A stretch of DNA of 35,564 bases. It comes from Cytophagaceae bacterium. Its GTDB lineage: Bacteria > Bacteroidota > Bacteroidia > Cytophagales > Spirosomataceae. A program made the position numbers and the translations under genes. A model generated the notes under the pieces. That model worked only from the letters and a program-made list of their open reading frames with translations. It was not told the origin of the DNA and did no database searches. The stretch spans positions 1 through 35,564 of the forward strand of contig CANFVE010000029.1 of NCBI GenBank assembly GCA_947450365.1. The letters are read 5' to 3'. Within the stretch, counting starts at the first letter, position 1. The number at the start of each line of letters is the position of its first letter. Positions 216-7,450 of the stretch are shown here, piece by piece.

Positions 216-908
216 GTTTGTTATCTGTTAAGGGGTTGATAAATGAATACATCAAATATCCTAGACAGATATGGATTTCCGGAATAAAATCGTTTCTATT
301 TTATATTATGGCCTAAATCTTATTCATTTTAAAATTCATGGCTATAGAAATCATAAAAAGAACTATTTGATGCGAAAGAGAATACACTGATTGAATAATC
401 CCGGTAGTTTTTATACACAATGGGTTCACTGGACATCAAGTCATGAAACTGTTCCTGTTATAATTAGGAAGGTGAATTGATTACACCATCTGCCGGTATA
501 TATTCTTCTGATGAGATGTCTTATTCTGTCATTTTATAATAAATGGTCTGAGTTTCACGAATGGGTCAATTCCCACGATGCCGAATTACGGCGAAATCTG
601 TTCTATTTTAGACCCTAAATTGTTGCTGGTGATACAAATATCCCAAGTATTATATTTTTTATCTATAGGAAGTTACACCTACATCCTTTACGACAAAATA
701 CCTCTTTAAATTACAGGAAGTGGGATTTTTTTTCTTAGCAATTTCTTAACATTGACTAGGTTGACTATCCCAATTATTTTCCGTCTATTTTATAAATCAC
801 AGATTGGAAAGTAAAGGGTTCAATCTTTATAATATACAAAATCACTTTTTTATCCCCTCCTTGTTCGTTGTCCTTTACCAACGAGCCGGTGAGGGATTCT
901 TATTTATC
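216..908. other. Intergenic region without a recognisable gene, upstream of rep-like gene
   Basis: About 690 AT-rich bases lie between the leftward recombinase and the rep-like gene. I see no ORF with convincing coding character in any frame. Small structures are present: adjacent short inverted repeats TGGG/CCCA (562-565 and 572-575) and GCCG/CGGC (580-583 and 589-592), and a tandem TTGACTA pair at 752-758 and 761-767. It probably holds the promoters of the two divergent genes, but no clean TTTG/TAnnTTTG pair is visible. An E. coli-like TTGGAA...TATAAT arrangement starting at 804 is present but is not the usual Bacteroidota promoter type. Confidence 0.5.
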
Positions 909-1685
909 ATGAAAGAACAATATTTAAACATCACCCAAAGTATCAAGTATCACCCATCTCTCAATAGTGATGAAAAATTTATTCTTGCGGAAATAATAGC
1001 ACTTTCTGAACTTCCAAATGGATGTATTGCTAGTGATAAACATTTTGCAAGGATTATTAACAAAACAAGACAGACTGCAAACGGAATTGTCAAGAAGTTT
1101 GAGAAAATAGGATATATAACTATTACAGTTATTCTTGGAAAAGGAAAGATTACAAAGTTGGCGGATAATTTTTGGCAATTAATTAGGACACCTGTCAAAA
1201 TTGAGGACAGCTCTGAGCTCTTTCAAGAGTCGGGTGATGTCGAATTGTTAGACATCTCGTGTCGAGATACTTTACAGGTAGGTGTCGAGAATGAAGACAC
1301 CACGTGTCGGGAGACTGACACAATTATTACACCTATTATTACAGGTTTATTATTACAAGAAGAACTACAATATACTGGGACAACCGGTGATTCTTCTATT
1401 GAAAATATTGATAACCGGTACCAAGATGCTTGTTCAAGATTAATTGAATTAATTAATACGGACCCGGCCCAATTGATTAATACCTTTATTAAGGAATTTC
1501 AAGAATGCTTGGTAATTCTTGAACATAGATTTGGTGCCAGTATCTTTGATGAGTGTCATATTTTTAAAAGTAACAATGAACTATATAAAATATATGGATT
1601 CTCAAATTTTTCAGAAGTCCGCGAGGACTTAATGTTCGTTAAGGATAATATGGATAAATTTCTCCGGCAAAAGACTTTCATATAA
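909..1685 (+). CDS. Replication-initiator-like winged-helix protein of the element
   Basis: The protein is 258 aa. Residues about 8-75 form a predicted winged-helix domain (LNSDEKFILAEIIALS, then ASDKHFARIINKTRQTANGIVKKFEKIGYI), like the N-terminal DNA-binding domains of plasmid Rep proteins of the RepA_N/replisome-organiser type. The middle is low in hydrophobic residues, and the last 80 residues look helical with no family I recognise. I chose ATG at 909 over an in-frame TTG at 804 because the 35 residues between do not belong to the domain. The central coding region (1235-1357) carries four iteron-like repeats and three AT-rich 9-mers, the arrangement known from RepA_N plasmids, whose origins lie inside the rep gene. 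Replication initiation is therefore the best guess; a transcription factor is the alternative. Confidence 0.6.
   Translation: MKEQYLNITQSIKYHPSLNSDEKFILAEIIALSELPNGCIASDKHFARIINKTRQTANGIVKKFEKIGYITITVILGKGKITKLADNFWQLIRTPVKIEDSSELFQESGDVELLDISCRDTLQVGVENEDTTCRETDTIITPIITGLLLQEELQYTGTTGDSSIENIDNRYQDACSRLIELINTDPAQLINTFIKEFQECLVILEHRFGASIFDECHIFKSNNELYKIYGFSNFSEVREDLMFVKDNMDKFLRQKTFI
1235..1321 (+). repeat. Four ~22-bp iteron-like repeats inside the rep-like gene
   Basis: TGTCG recurs at 1238, 1260, 1283 and 1305, spacings of 22, 23 and 22 bases, about two helical turns. A second half, GACA or TACA, follows at an offset of 13 bases (1251, 1273, 1296) or 12 (1317). Three units are inverted repeats: GATGTC/GACATC with a 9-base spacer (1236-1256), GGTGTC/GACACC with a 9-base spacer (1281-1301), and GTGTC/GACAC with an 8-base spacer (1304-1321). 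A perfect ATCTCG-TGT-CGAGAT (1254-1268) overlaps the second. Successive copies fall in different reading phases, so this is a DNA repeat, not a protein repeat. Binding by the encoded protein is an inference. Confidence 0.7.
1323..1357 (+). repeat. Three copies of AT-rich 9-mer ATTATTACA (possible DNA unwinding element)
   Basis: Exact copies of ATTATTACA occur at 1323-1331, 1335-1343 and 1349-1357, directly after the iteron array. The third is out of phase with the first two, so amino-acid repetition does not explain all three. AT-rich direct repeats next to iterons are the typical layout of a replication origin with an unwinding region. Function is inferred from layout only. Confidence 0.55.
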
Positions 1686-3195: not shown

Positions 3196-3296
3196 AGATA
3201 TATAAAATACGAGTGAGGTGGAGCCAGAACCCACTTTAAAAAACGGGAGCAACCGAAAAGCCACAAGAGTAGGGAATCAATTAAATAATTTATCCT
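3196..3296 (+). ncRNA. Structured leader, type A, copy 2
   Basis: This is the second copy of the leader seen at 2690-2784, again ending at an ATG. The candidate stems are GGTGG (3217-3221) with CCACT (3231-3235), and ACTTT (3233-3237) with AGAGT (3256-3260). Relative to copy 1, A-U became G-U in the first stem and C-G became U-G in the second, so pairing survives. The inner segment differs most but keeps CGGG and GAAAAGCC. Confidence 0.55.
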
Positions 3297-3651: not shown

Positions 3652-4434
3652 ATGCACGATTTTAAATACAAAAAAGAAACGCTCTGCAAAGAGCTTGCAG
3701 GATGCATAGTTCAGTATCCGTGGGGACCAATAATTAAGCATCATTTTATTCACCAATCCTATAGGTCTGAACCTCATTTAAAGGATAAAGAAAATGGAAA
3801 GATGAATGAGATTTTGAAGATTAGGAAAGCTAATCAACGTAAGTTCATTTTAAAAAATGACTTTGACTCAGCCGCTTGGTCAATAGAAAAGCCATGGAGG
3901 ATTAAGTGGCTAAATGAAAATAAGGAGCTGATAGTTCGAAAAGTTGGAATGTCAATATACTATCAGATTGTCAGTGATGTATTTGTAGGATTTGATAATC
4001 CCCACCGTGACAAAAATGAAATTCTTGAACTTGCTTATTTCGGAGGTAATCCTCGACTGATGATGAATGAAGAGGAAGTAACTGAATTTGAAAAATTACC
4101 TCATAGTATAAAGGTTTGGAGGGGTGTTATGGCAGATAGGTCTCGTAATGAATTTGAGTTTTTAGGAAATTCTTGGACTTTGGATTATGAGCAAGCATTT
4201 TGGTTTACAAATAGAAGTGAATTTGGTGACAACGAATATCCATTAGTCTATGGTTTGACAATAAATAAGGAGGATGTACTGTCTTATTTTTCTCGGTGTA
4301 ACGAAAGTGAAATTTTGATTGACTACACAAAAATTGACTTAGATATGGTCGAATTTTTTTATCCCAAAGACACAGAAACTAATCAGACAAACGAAGTAGA
4401 TGTGTCACGATTCCAAATTGAAAAAGTGAGTTAA
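3652..4434 (+). CDS. Putative ADP-ribosyltransferase-fold protein
   Basis: The protein is 260 aa, cytoplasmic, with no signal peptide. The C-terminal half has an arrangement resembling the R-S-E class of ADP-ribosyltransferases: VWRG with Arg157, the SWTLD block (174-178) followed by AFWFTNR in the place of the S-T-S strand, and ESE at 218-220 followed by ILID, resembling the catalytic E-x-E. The N-terminal about 145 residues are unrecognised, with an aromatic- and charge-rich region. If active it would transfer ADP-ribose from NAD+ to an unknown target; similar uncharacterised proteins occur in phages and mobile elements. The assignment rests on motif order read by eye, so a non-enzymatic relative is possible. 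A hairpin of the same type lies on each side of the gene. Confidence 0.5.
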   Translation: MHDFKYKKETLCKELAGCIVQYPWGPIIKHHFIHQSYRSEPHLKDKENGKMNEILKIRKANQRKFILKNDFDSAAWSIEKPWRIKWLNENKELIVRKVGMSIYYQIVSDVFVGFDNPHRDKNEILELAYFGGNPRLMMNEEEVTEFEKLPHSIKVWRGVMADRSRNEFEFLGNSWTLDYEQAFWFTNRSEFGDNEYPLVYGLTINKEDVLSYFSRCNESEILIDYTKIDLDMVEFFYPKDTETNQTNEVDVSRFQIEKVS

Positions 4435-4641: not shown

Positions 4642-6462
4642 ATGATGGAAAATACAGGGTGTGCCGTTATTCTGGTTAGGGTAAGTACCGTTATTCAAGA
4701 TTACTTACCACAAGTTGGAGACTTGATAGATTACGCGAAAAAACTAGGATATACTAAATTTCACAAAATTGAAACCAAGGAGTCTGGTCTTGCAGATTTA
4801 AAAGACAAGGAGGGGCTAGAAAAACTGAAATCATTTATTCAGGATAACAAAGATTATAAGACAATTTTTGCCACAGAATTATCTCGAGTAGGAAGAAGAC
4901 AGTCAATCTTGCACCAAATTAAGGAATGGTTAGTTGCCAATAAAATTCAACTGTGCTTGAAGGATACTGGATATACTCTTTTTGATTCTTCAGGAAATAT
5001 TAGTGCGGCAGGAGAAATCATGTTCACATTATATGGATTTTTTGCAGAAAGTGAAGTTAAAGCCAAAAAAGACCGTTTTCAACGTGCTAAAAAACATCTA
5101 ATGAAAATGGGACTATCAATTTCTGGCAAGACATTATTTGGTTATAAAAAACAGACATTAGAAAAACAGAAGAGTACCTTGATATTAGATGAAAAAAACA
5201 GTGATATAGTTAAACAAATATTCAATTGGTATCTTAATGGATATGAAAATAAGGAGAGTCCGTCAATACGTGATATTTCCCTTAAATGTTTGAAAGAAAA
5301 TTTCCCAAGTTATACTCACAGTAAAAGGAATGTAAACAAACTACTAAAAGAAGAGGGTTATACTGGATTTAAAGTCACAAATAATAAAAGGAAAAATCCG
5401 AATTATGTAGAATTTACTAACGAAGAAAAATATATAATAACTCAAAACGAAATAAAATATCCTGAAATAATTGATAGAGAATTATATGATGCTGTACAGA
5501 CAAAACTTAAAACAAATAATACAACTGCAGATAAGGCTAACAAACACATAACATTGCTATCTCGTATGGTTGTCTGCCCTAATTGCGGGAACTATTATAC
5601 TGGTGACTATAGAACTGTAAAGAATATCGTAAAGAATAGTTTGAGGTGCGGAGGTAGAAGTAAAACAGTCCCATGTATGAACAAACAAGTAATTAGCATG
5701 AGCATGCTAGATTCTGCAATATGGTCGTTAATTAAAACCGATTTAAGTTTATTATCAGAAACCATAAATAAATTAAACCCGGACGAAAACATTGAAATAC
5801 TTAAAACAAACAAGTTAAGTATTGAAAACAAGCTTAAATCTATTGAATCGGAAAAAATACAGTTAGAGAACGGATTAATCACATCTATGGTACACAGAAA
5901 TATTAACTTGAGTAACCTTATTGTTACATTCGAATCAAGAATAAAAAAACTTAGTAAGGATAAGAGTATTTTACAAAAAGAGTTAGTAAAAGTTCAAAAT
6001 CAATTATTAATCTCAGAAAAAAAACTATTGAATATTGAGGACATAATTGTTAAGAATATTGACTCCATAGAAAATAATCCTACACTTCTAAGACGATACA
6101 TCTCTTACTTTATTAGTCGCATTGAAATACTTTCACACGATAAAAAATTCACTGTTTTAAAAATCACTTTTAAAGCCTACGGGAAAGAAAAAAGAATTGT
6201 TGACTTTAATGGTAGATTAGATTACGTTGACCCAGATTACAGTATTTTCACTCATATTATATTGGATAAAAGGAAAACTCTCAATATAAAAGCAGTTAAG
6301 GTAACTAAATCAAATTTGATAATTGAAAATAATGAAATCAAATTCAGTCAAATGATTCCGATTGAAAGATTATTTGATATACCACCTTTTGATATTGGGA
6401 ATAAACTTATATCGCAAGATGTGAAACGATTTAACCTTACAAAATTAAATCTAGTTCAATAG
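4642..6462 (+). CDS. Large serine recombinase (integrase of the element)
   Basis: The protein is 606 aa, the size of large serine integrases. The catalytic domain covers residues about 7-150: VRVST with nucleophile Ser15, ELSRVGRR near 79-86, and AAGEIMFTLYGFFAESE leading into helix E. A recombinase domain (about 165-300) follows. A zinc ribbon has Cys312, Cys315, Cys336 and Cys345, and a coiled-coil stretch (about 375-465) is the part that controls synapsis in this family. It carries out site-specific integration and excision between attP and attB. Its stop codon lies 100 bases from the comM junction, the usual position of such a gene beside its attachment site. Start ATG 4642 or ATG 4645 are equally possible. 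Confidence 0.93.
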   Translation: MMENTGCAVILVRVSTVIQDYLPQVGDLIDYAKKLGYTKFHKIETKESGLADLKDKEGLEKLKSFIQDNKDYKTIFATELSRVGRRQSILHQIKEWLVANKIQLCLKDTGYTLFDSSGNISAAGEIMFTLYGFFAESEVKAKKDRFQRAKKHLMKMGLSISGKTLFGYKKQTLEKQKSTLILDEKNSDIVKQIFNWYLNGYENKESPSIRDISLKCLKENFPSYTHSKRNVNKLLKEEGYTGFKVTNNKRKNPNYVEFTNEEKYIITQNEIKYPEIIDRELYDAVQTKLKTNNTTADKANKHITLLSRMVVCPNCGNYYTGDYRTVKNIVKNSLRCGGRSKTVPCMNKQVISMSMLDSAIWSLIKTDLSLLSETINKLNPDENIEILKTNKLSIENKLKSIESEKIQLENGLITSMVHRNINLSNLIVTFESRIKKLSKDKSILQKELVKVQNQLLISEKKLLNIEDIIVKNIDSIENNPTLLRRYISYFISRIEILSHDKKFTVLKITFKAYGKEKRIVDFNGRLDYVDPDYSIFTHIILDKRKTLNIKAVKVTKSNLIIENNEIKFSQMIPIERLFDIPPFDIGNKLISQDVKRFNLTKLNLVQ

Positions 6463-6562: not shown

Positions 6563-7450
6563 ATGATGATAGGACCACCGGGGGCGGGCAAGACCATGAT
6601 GGCCAAACGCCTACCGAGTATTCTTCCGCCGATGAGCTTAAAGGAAGCACTGGAAACAACCAAAATTCATTCCGTGGCGGGAAAACTCATGGGAAAAGTG
6701 TCACTGATTTCCCAGAGACCCTTTCGGGCACCCCATCATTCGGTTTCTTCCGTGGCTTTGCTGGGTGGCGGGGCGGTTCCCCAACCGGGTGAAATTAGTT
6801 TAGCGCACAATGGGGTTTTGTTTTTGGATGAATTGCCTGAATTTCCCAGACATGTCGTGGAAGCGATGCGCCAACCCCTCGAAGATCGCCAAATCCATAT
6901 TGCACGTGCTAAATTTTCGGTCGAATTTCCGGCCAATTTTATGTTGGTCGCCAGCATGAACCCATGCCCCTGTGGATTTTATACCCATCCGGAAAAAGAT
7001 TGCACCTGTGGAACGGAATTGGTCGAAAAATACCTGAATAAAATTTCAGGCCCCTTATTAGATCGAATGGATTTACATGTGGAGGTGAGTCCGATGCGAT
7101 TTGAGCAAATGACTTCGAATCAAAGCCAAGAAGGGAGTTGGGCTATTCGTGAACGAGTTATTCGAGGTCGTAAAATGCAGGAAAAACGGTTTGAGAAATT
7201 TCCGCAATTTCATGCGAATGCCAGTATGCCTTCCCCGATGGTTAAACGCTTTTGCTCCTTGGATACCTCCTCACAGCACTTGTTGAAAAAAGCGATGGAT
7301 CATTTGAAGTTATCTGCGCGTGCCTATGACCGTATTTTAAAGGTAGCGCGGACGATTGCGGATTTGGATTCGGCTTCGGAAATTGCAAGCCAACATGTGG
7401 CTGAGGCGATTACCTATCGAAGTTTAGATAGGGAAAATTGGGCCGGATAA
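6563..7450 (+). pseudogene. comM: ComM/YifB Mg-chelatase-like AAA+ ATPase, 3' part only
   Basis: 295 codons remain of a protein normally about 500 aa. ComM is a hexameric helicase that promotes branch migration during natural transformation. The visible part has Walker A GPPGAGKT (residues 4-11), Walker B VLFLDE (85-90), the four-cysteine NPCPCGFY...CTCG segment (135-149), LLDRMD (165-170) and the C-terminal magnesium-chelatase-type domain. The N-terminal Lon-protease-like half is missing: the sequence upstream is the recombinase element and an in-frame stop lies 16 bases before the ATG. By chance codons ATG ATG precede the Walker A, so a truncated ATPase could still be translated. Excision of the element would restore the gene. 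Confidence 0.88.

Follow-up and report, generated by a model that had tools for sequence, protein, structure and literature searches.

A probable lambda-type replication origin within the rep-like gene of a mobile element integrated in a Cytophagaceae bacterium

Genes and features of the element

The window, that is the whole stretch of DNA analysed (35,564 nt), is the entire contig C29 of a 2.66 Mb assembly with 61 contigs. It carries the visible part of a mobile element inserted in comM/yifB (Table 1); the left end of the element lies beyond the contig. The comM frame was open, with 510–519 aa, in all seven same-genus genomes searched. A search of the assembly for its N-terminal part, having no positive control of its own, gave no match. 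An earlier search of the assembly had given two matches, on contigs 32 and 18, and the one on contig 32 we take to be RadA by its sequence.

Table 1 Coordinates of the features recognized in the element, its rep-like gene and its right flank.
Feature	Position	Strand	Remarks
Serine recombinase, resolvase type	3–215	−	Pfam Resolvase, E 1.9e-7; head to head with rep; truncated by the contig end
Leader hairpin I	801–826	+	Predicted; loop with GTAAAGG (811–817)
Leader hairpin II	855–895	+	Predicted; immediately upstream of rep; loop TCCTTTAC (871–878)
rep-like gene, 258 aa	909–1685	+	N-terminal HTH, then central stretch coded by the repeat zone, then C-terminal part
Iteron 1	1236–1256	+	GATGTC-N9-GACATC, 6/6 arms; sequence, paired-arm test
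Iteron 2	1258–1278	+	Left arm CGTGTC, imperfect right arm; sequence, paired-arm test
Iteron 3	1281–1301	+	GGTGTC-N9-GACACC, 6/6 arms; sequence, paired-arm test; homologous unit in L004
Iteron 4	1303–1321	+	GTGTC/GACAC half-sites nearer each other than in units 1 and 3; direct-repeat test only
AT-rich zone, proposed opening region	1322–1372	+	Holds ATTATTACA at 1323, 1335 and 1349
Large serine recombinase, presumed element integrase	4642–6462	+	Pfam Resolvase, Recombinase, Zn_ribbon_recom
Right flank, C-terminal part of the interrupted comM/yifB	6567–7450	+	Pfam Mg_chelatase; insertion near the P-loop codons

Between the end of rep and the start of the next gene there was an imperfect inverted repeat (1676–1698/1901–1923, 74% complementary, with CTCCTCAACG/CGTTGAGGAG). 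The sequence CTCCTCAAC was conserved after rep in two homologous loci, L004 and L005. A piece of 52–54 bp from the 3′ end of rep (1612–1665 in the window) was found also at L002 5002–5055 and L003 684–735. It stands alone in two Saprospiraceae contigs, with 94–96% identity and an AAGTCC...GGACTT palindrome, and in L002 and L003 it adjoins what looks like one same gene. Two DUF805 RNAs (RF03081, cis-regulatory) scored above the gathering score at 2700–2769 and 3213–3279, upstream of small genes at 2785 and 3297. A 260-aa protein (3652–4434) matched the uncharacterised phage family phrog_4776 (E 1.8e-29).

Family and fold of the rep-like protein

The preliminary description of this DNA had called the gene rep-like, in agreement with its PHROG matches to phage replication initiators: the DnaD-like helicase loader phrog_186 (E 3.6e-8, residues 2–203) and the replication initiation family phrog_270 (E 4.4e-6), plus others. 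For phrog_678, with O-like initiators, the E-value was 0.36 for the 258-aa protein (P0001), 0.0074 for L004 and 3.9e-6 for L006. The whole protein had no Pfam match at E ≤ 1, RepA_N included, and its own 100-aa N-terminus matched no Pfam family at E ≤ 0.01. From the 25 members of the HTH alignment A2, 23 matched HTH_36 (PF13730), three DnaD_N and one Phage_rep_O (E 0.0076). RepA_N was absent from the 17 Pfam families matched by these members at E ≤ 0.01. With no such domain match in the protein or in the 25 members, membership in RepA_N was rejected.

The structure model of the whole protein was useless alone (pLDDT 37.5). For the HTH domain, a model built with viral homologs had a pLDDT of 68, and Foldseek found nothing for it at E ≤ 1e-3. 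The weak matches included 4pql, 4pt7 and 5kbj, which we take to be RepA_N initiator structures, within the first 15 (E 0.02–0.05), alongside MarR-type regulators and other winged helices; the DnaD N-terminal domain appeared, also weakly, at rank 30. When solved-structure sequences were searched with the HTH profile, the best 60 of 93 matches were to winged-helix regulators, those of the MarR type among them (best E 3.9e-6); NCBIfam gave weak winged-helix matches at most.

A repeat array inside the rep-like gene

TGTCG starts at 1238, 1260, 1283 and 1305, with spacings of 22, 23 and 22 bases, and has no further copy within 901–1700. Three exact copies of ATTATTACA follow (Table 1), the only ones on both strands of the window. 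Both patterns had been given in the preliminary description and were found there exactly. It had further described three of the units as inverted repeats with arms varying together, and units 1 and 3 indeed pair over six of six positions. Unit 4 has short arms, or a spacer shorter than in the other units.

As null model we used synonymous-codon shuffles of the gene, which keep the protein sequence. The direct-repeat score of the gene was reached in 11 (three units), 15 (four units) and 15 (five units) of 5000 shuffles, and three copies of ATTATTACA were present in 13 of 5000. A paired-arm model of the form 6-9-6, fixed from the preliminary description, was reached for three units (units 1–3) in none of 1000 shuffles, confirming the paired arms, and for four units in one of 1000. 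Unit 4 falls outside this strict model, since the best four-unit chain uses instead a stretch at ~1215, upstream of unit 1.

The same description had argued that the copies fall in different reading phases. This is a good argument for the iterons, because TGTCG lies in two phases, and a weak one for the 9-mers, two of which share a phase. The repeat array in the gene is confirmed as real.

Repeats in the closest relatives

The rep-like gene was present in four of 38 genomes of the genus. Its same-genus homologs are L004 (59% identity), L005 (49%) and L006 (34%). In L004, paired-arm units were found at the homologous place (three units in 0/1000 shuffles, four in 6/1000), and the cruder direct-repeat test was not passed (160/300). 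L006 had a different repeat, GTAGTTC, at 22–23 bp (direct 0/300; paired-arm 13/1000 and 4/1000). Units similar to GTAGTTC were seen by eye in L008 and L009, which did not pass the direct-repeat test (206/300 and 223/300) and failed the paired-arm model too. L010 passed the direct test (0/300) and failed the paired-arm model. No array was found in L005: the direct test gave 14/300 at another site, the paired-arm model 912/1000 and 786/1000, and the repeat zone is shorter than in the window.

We compared codons at residues identical to the window, excluding M and W. L004 had the same codon at 15/16 of these residues in the iterons, 13/13 in the AT zone and 80/119 elsewhere; the values for L005 were 7/10, 9/10 and 60/97.

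The preliminary description had proposed to see in homologs whether the repeats persist while the protein drifts. The period did persist after the HTH domain, with both amino acids and iterons drifting. The case that it had named as refuting, a protein kept and its repeats lost, occurred once among the three closest relatives, in the half-conserved L005 with no detectable array. An element that is now a relic, with a former origin no longer functional, would be in line with the lack of an array in L005, with a left end beyond the contig and with a comM N-terminal part that a search lacking its own positive control did not find; the rep frame is, however, intact, two units have perfect 6/6 arms and L004 keeps codons in the repeat zone, so that we consider a relic unlikely.

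Repeat arrays across the protein family

At E ≤ 1e-6 the HTH-domain profile had a patchy distribution: it matched 35 genomes out of 380 in the order, 10 out of 395 in the class and 13 out of 395 in the phylum. The cellular set comprised 54 distinct genes, 52 of them long enough for the repeat test, including the window's gene and L028, which we take by its look to be a DtxR-type false positive. The viral set comprised 42 distinct genes from viral contigs, of which 41 were tested; a direct search of the viral contigs with P0001, A1 or A5 gave no match. The plasmid stretch L137 also carries a distant homolog.

A gene passed if at most three of 300 shuffles reached its score. The controls for the cellular set comprised 24 window genes and, from the loci of the tested genes, further frames with a length of 200 aa or more. 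The test was passed by 25 of the 52 cellular genes (window included) versus 3/131 controls, and by 29 of the 41 viral genes versus 0/71 control frames. These counts are not independent, because the viral L134 and L135 share their arrays with the cellular L016 and L027, and because many of the viral genes differ little from one another. The three passing controls overlie homolog genes on the opposite strand. Among the relatives, 27/52 cellular and 12/41 viral genes failed, and L080, L048 and L049 passed on poor or differently spaced repeats.

Spacings were counted in the 52 of 54 passing genes with a run of at least three units (search range 18–26, run chosen within 20–24). From 144 spacings, 100 were of 22 bp, 19 of 23, 17 of 21, five of 24 and three of 20; those divisible by three numbered 16/67 in cellular and 6/77 in viral genes. 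In the middle half of the genes, the distance from the HTH-domain start to the array was 267–329 nt; outliers ranged between 16 and 516 nt. The iteron sequence itself varied between groups (e.g., CCTATTGCA, CCGCAAAAT, CGGAAATTC, AACCTAGAC and ACGGGCAGA).

These results bear on the possibility that a repetitive linker peptide, or chance, makes the DNA appear repeated. Linkers of such proteins are of low complexity, and the 11–15 of 5000 shuffles that reach the score are those of the window taken alone. The 22/23 spacing is out of frame, though, synonymous shuffles preserve the peptide yet mostly lose the repeats, and the pattern recurs among relatives and hardly in controls. The shuffles and the relatives together lead us to reject this explanation, to which we assign a negligible probability.

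The 70 bp 3′ of the array exceeded the gene in AT content in 45 of 48 distinct arrays. AWTAC words occurred 51 times after the arrays, the mean in 100 shuffles being 34.4 and the maximum 44. Palindromic sites of winged-HTH proteins are usually operators, and the best solved-structure matches of the HTH profile (best 60 of 93) are MarR-type regulators, as would be expected if the array were only an operator through which the protein autoregulates its gene, with the origin elsewhere. We find this very unlikely: the array sits mid-gene, with ~330 bp of coding sequence before it, and the AT-rich stretch behind the arrays is the layout of the lambda origin.

In a set of 31 proteins, de-duplicated from 52 by removing L123, L054, L080 and 90% near-duplicates, the similarity of the iterons followed that of the recognition helix (correlation 0.43) about as closely as that of the remaining HTH domain (0.41). 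The partial correlations were 0.27 and 0.25, respectively, each reached in 0/2000 permutations. These values do not single out the recognition helix as the main determinant of the iterons.

A predicted loop-loop pairing in the rep leader

The loops of the two hairpins predicted upstream of rep (Table 1) are complementary over seven bases. The leader fold was mildly unusual (6/200 shuffles fold as well), and Rfam gave no match over the leader at E ≤ 1. In L004 the loops pair over eight bases. Those of L005 show a compensatory change on both sides (GTAGTGGA/TCCACTAC), and those of L006 have an unrelated sequence that still pairs (TCCCTTCC/GGAAGGGA), at nearly unchanged distances. Dinucleotide shuffles reached the pairing in 36 (window), 6 (L004), 7 (L005) and 20 (L006) of 400, each value being weak singly. 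Among 96 homolog leaders, a pairing of eight bases was present in four (L004, L005, L006 and the viral L092) and one of seven bases in eight, window included.

The plasmid ColIb-P9 controls repZ via a loop-loop pseudoknot. By its predicted folding, the leader at 801–895 resembles such a translation-controlling pseudoknot.

Further upstream, the stretch 688–752 was conserved in L004, L005 and L008. It includes TTACGACAAAA, for which L004 has TTACGGCAAAA, together with a direct repeat resembling CTTAGCAATTCCTTAGCA, and is possibly a promoter or a recombination site.

Element modules and the exchangeable slot

Loci L145, L147, L148 and L159–L165 are small modules from one genus, having a resolvase (most of them), an exchangeable slot, a small protein and a protein of the ParB-methyltransferase type. 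In the genomes G025, G016 and G005, an initiator of the same kind as the window's is accompanied by a resolvase-type gene and two proteins, one of them small and the other with an N6/N4 methyltransferase domain. ParB_N in the latter was above the cut-off in G025, below it in G005 and unmatched in G016. G016 has a tyrosine integrase as well, and G005 a large serine recombinase. There was no methyltransferase gene in the visible part of the window's element; a search at E ≤ 0.001 found proteins of this type, partly by weak matches, in 13 of the genus's 38 genomes.

In the seven further stretches examined, other genes held the place of rep. G010 encoded a BT4734-like protein (E 4.1e-8; primase/helicase phrog, 9.7e-9), as did G007 with a match below the cut-off (0.0014), and on contig 41 of G018 there was a BT4734 look-alike, by resemblance only. 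G029 had another HTH initiator (phrog_4707, 5.2e-12), failing the repeat test (85/200). A protein of 603–605 aa occupied the slot in G018 contig 24 and G025 contig 5. In G017, a less clear case, the neighbouring genes are one resembling helicases and one for a methyltransferase, possibly forming a restriction system. The exchange of the slot gene for other replication-type proteins supports a role of the slot in replication.

In the gene of the G029 initiator (L161, 3402–4112, minus strand), TGTCG/CGACA inverted sites were seen by eye, with an AT-rich stretch after them, similar to the window.

No clear virion or conjugation genes were recognized among the module proteins scanned; the sole such label was phrog_218 “head closure” (5.7e-6), matching part of the G017 helicase-like protein. 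For G025:C3 as a circle, a terminal overlap was absent at the six lengths tried.

The resolvase gene stands head to head with rep in the window and also in L145, L147 and L148, and the repeats might be imagined to serve as crossover or accessory site of this neighbour. One would look for such a site in the space separating the genes, however, and comparable arrays exist in viral contigs and in lambda. An extremely small probability remains for a resolvase site.

A broader reading, which we offer as tentative and rather doubtful, is that the modules are small integrated replicons, probably of Bacteroidota, consisting of a resolvase, a slot swapping whole replication systems, a small protein, one of the ParB-methyltransferase type and an integrase. 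Where the slot gene is of the HTH type, it would carry the origin, with inverted iterons at a 22-bp pitch and turnover of their sequence, and a leader whose loop pairing would control translation of the initiator.

Proposed origin and mechanism

The preliminary description had interpreted the array as an origin inside rep, and the sequence comparisons made here support this interpretation. We consider it highly likely that the region 1236–1372 is the replication origin of the integrated mobile element, placed inside its own initiator gene and of the lambda type. The comparisons establish the repeats, their recurrence at matching position and pitch in many relatives, the protein's family and part of the element's context. 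Against this reading stand the missing array of L005, the direct-test failures of L004, L008 and L009, the paired-arm failures of L008, L009 and L010, the roughly two fifths of relatives without a pass, the failing G029 initiator and the lack of a recognized helicase-loader gene next to rep.

In the mechanism that we propose, the 258-aa protein, probably in dimeric form, would attach to the four inverted-repeat iterons through its winged-HTH N-terminal domain. The complex would then melt the adjoining AT-rich zone with its ATTATTACA repeats, and the protein would help to recruit the host helicase, comparable to lambda O with lambda P and DnaB. The element would replicate in this manner after excision. 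The protein stretch coded by the origin may be a loose linker, which would leave the iterons free to change.

Origins located within the gene of their initiator have been known since lambda. The mobile-element setting and the leader loop-loop pairing may be new. Among the matches listed, in a literature largely excluding subscription journals, none described an iteron origin within a gene for an element of Bacteroidota. With a pitch staying near 22 bp and repeats that turn over in sequence, the genes form a data set from which one could study what DNA specificity HTH_36 initiators have and which replicons are compatible. As candidate replicons of compact size, the elements may also be of use in bacteria for which genetic tools are scarce.

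Comparison with known systems

Rep proteins of the HTH_36 family with iterons have been described for Paracoccus plasmids, and pAES7 has a partial iteron overlapping with the start codon of rep (PMC3832669). They differ from the window in that a mid-gene array is unmentioned in the parts of that paper available to us. The hybrid initiators of the pPR9 type have an HTH_36 (PF13730) N-terminal domain, as found in 23/25 members here, and a phage-like N-terminal domain with its origin region has been swapped into them, as described in PMC5703833. They differ from the window protein by a RepA_N C-terminal domain and a Gram-positive host.

The RepA_N plasmids, with which the preliminary description had compared the window, are alike in layout. 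In pSK41 the Rep boxes lie in the middle of rep, in a stretch that encodes a deletable linker, and the N-terminal domain of this type is a winged-HTH with a DnaD-like fold (PMC5703833). The shared part of the comparison is the origin-in-rep layout, with repeats placed centrally in the gene. It does not extend to the family: the window protein has no RepA_N Pfam match, the hosts are others and the fold match is weak, and the lambda O gene with its origin is closer. As judged from these profiles, RepA_N is an analogue of the window's system, belonging to another family.

Counterparts exist also in phages. By tblastn, the 258-aa protein gave eight phage records at E ≤ 0.01, being distant HTH homologs. 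Four of them were examined, among initiators of Lactobacillus and Butyrivibrio phages, whose hosts are others than the window's, and repeats were found in three: LJ orf7, Ceridwen and AB1 ORF18 had 0, 0 and 3 of 300 shuffles in the repeat test, and CL1_46 failed with 46/300. Four genes neighbouring phage initiators gave 22–245 of 300.

The lambda O gene, used as positive control, had a score reached in 0/300 shuffles, with units exactly at the annotated iterons and spacings of 20, 24 and 23; lambda P gave 252/300. In lambda, dimers of O bind inverted iterons within the O gene, and the complex opens the adjoining AT-rich region, followed by helicase loading (PMC5043065). The window's array is different in iteron sequence, and its kinship to O is weak, as the phrog_678 match indicates. 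Lambda also has P beside O, whereas no P-like partner was recognized beside the window's rep; the adjacent gene (1918–2643) had no Pfam or PHROG match at E ≤ 1, and no helicase loader was recognized in it. The likeness is in the plan: four inverted iterons 20–24 bp apart, then an AT-rich stretch, all within the initiator gene. Although the anatomy of the window resembles lambda and pSK41 alike, the inverted form of its iterons points to the lambda type. The lambda plan would thereby reach many viral contigs as well as small integrated elements, probably of Bacteroidota.
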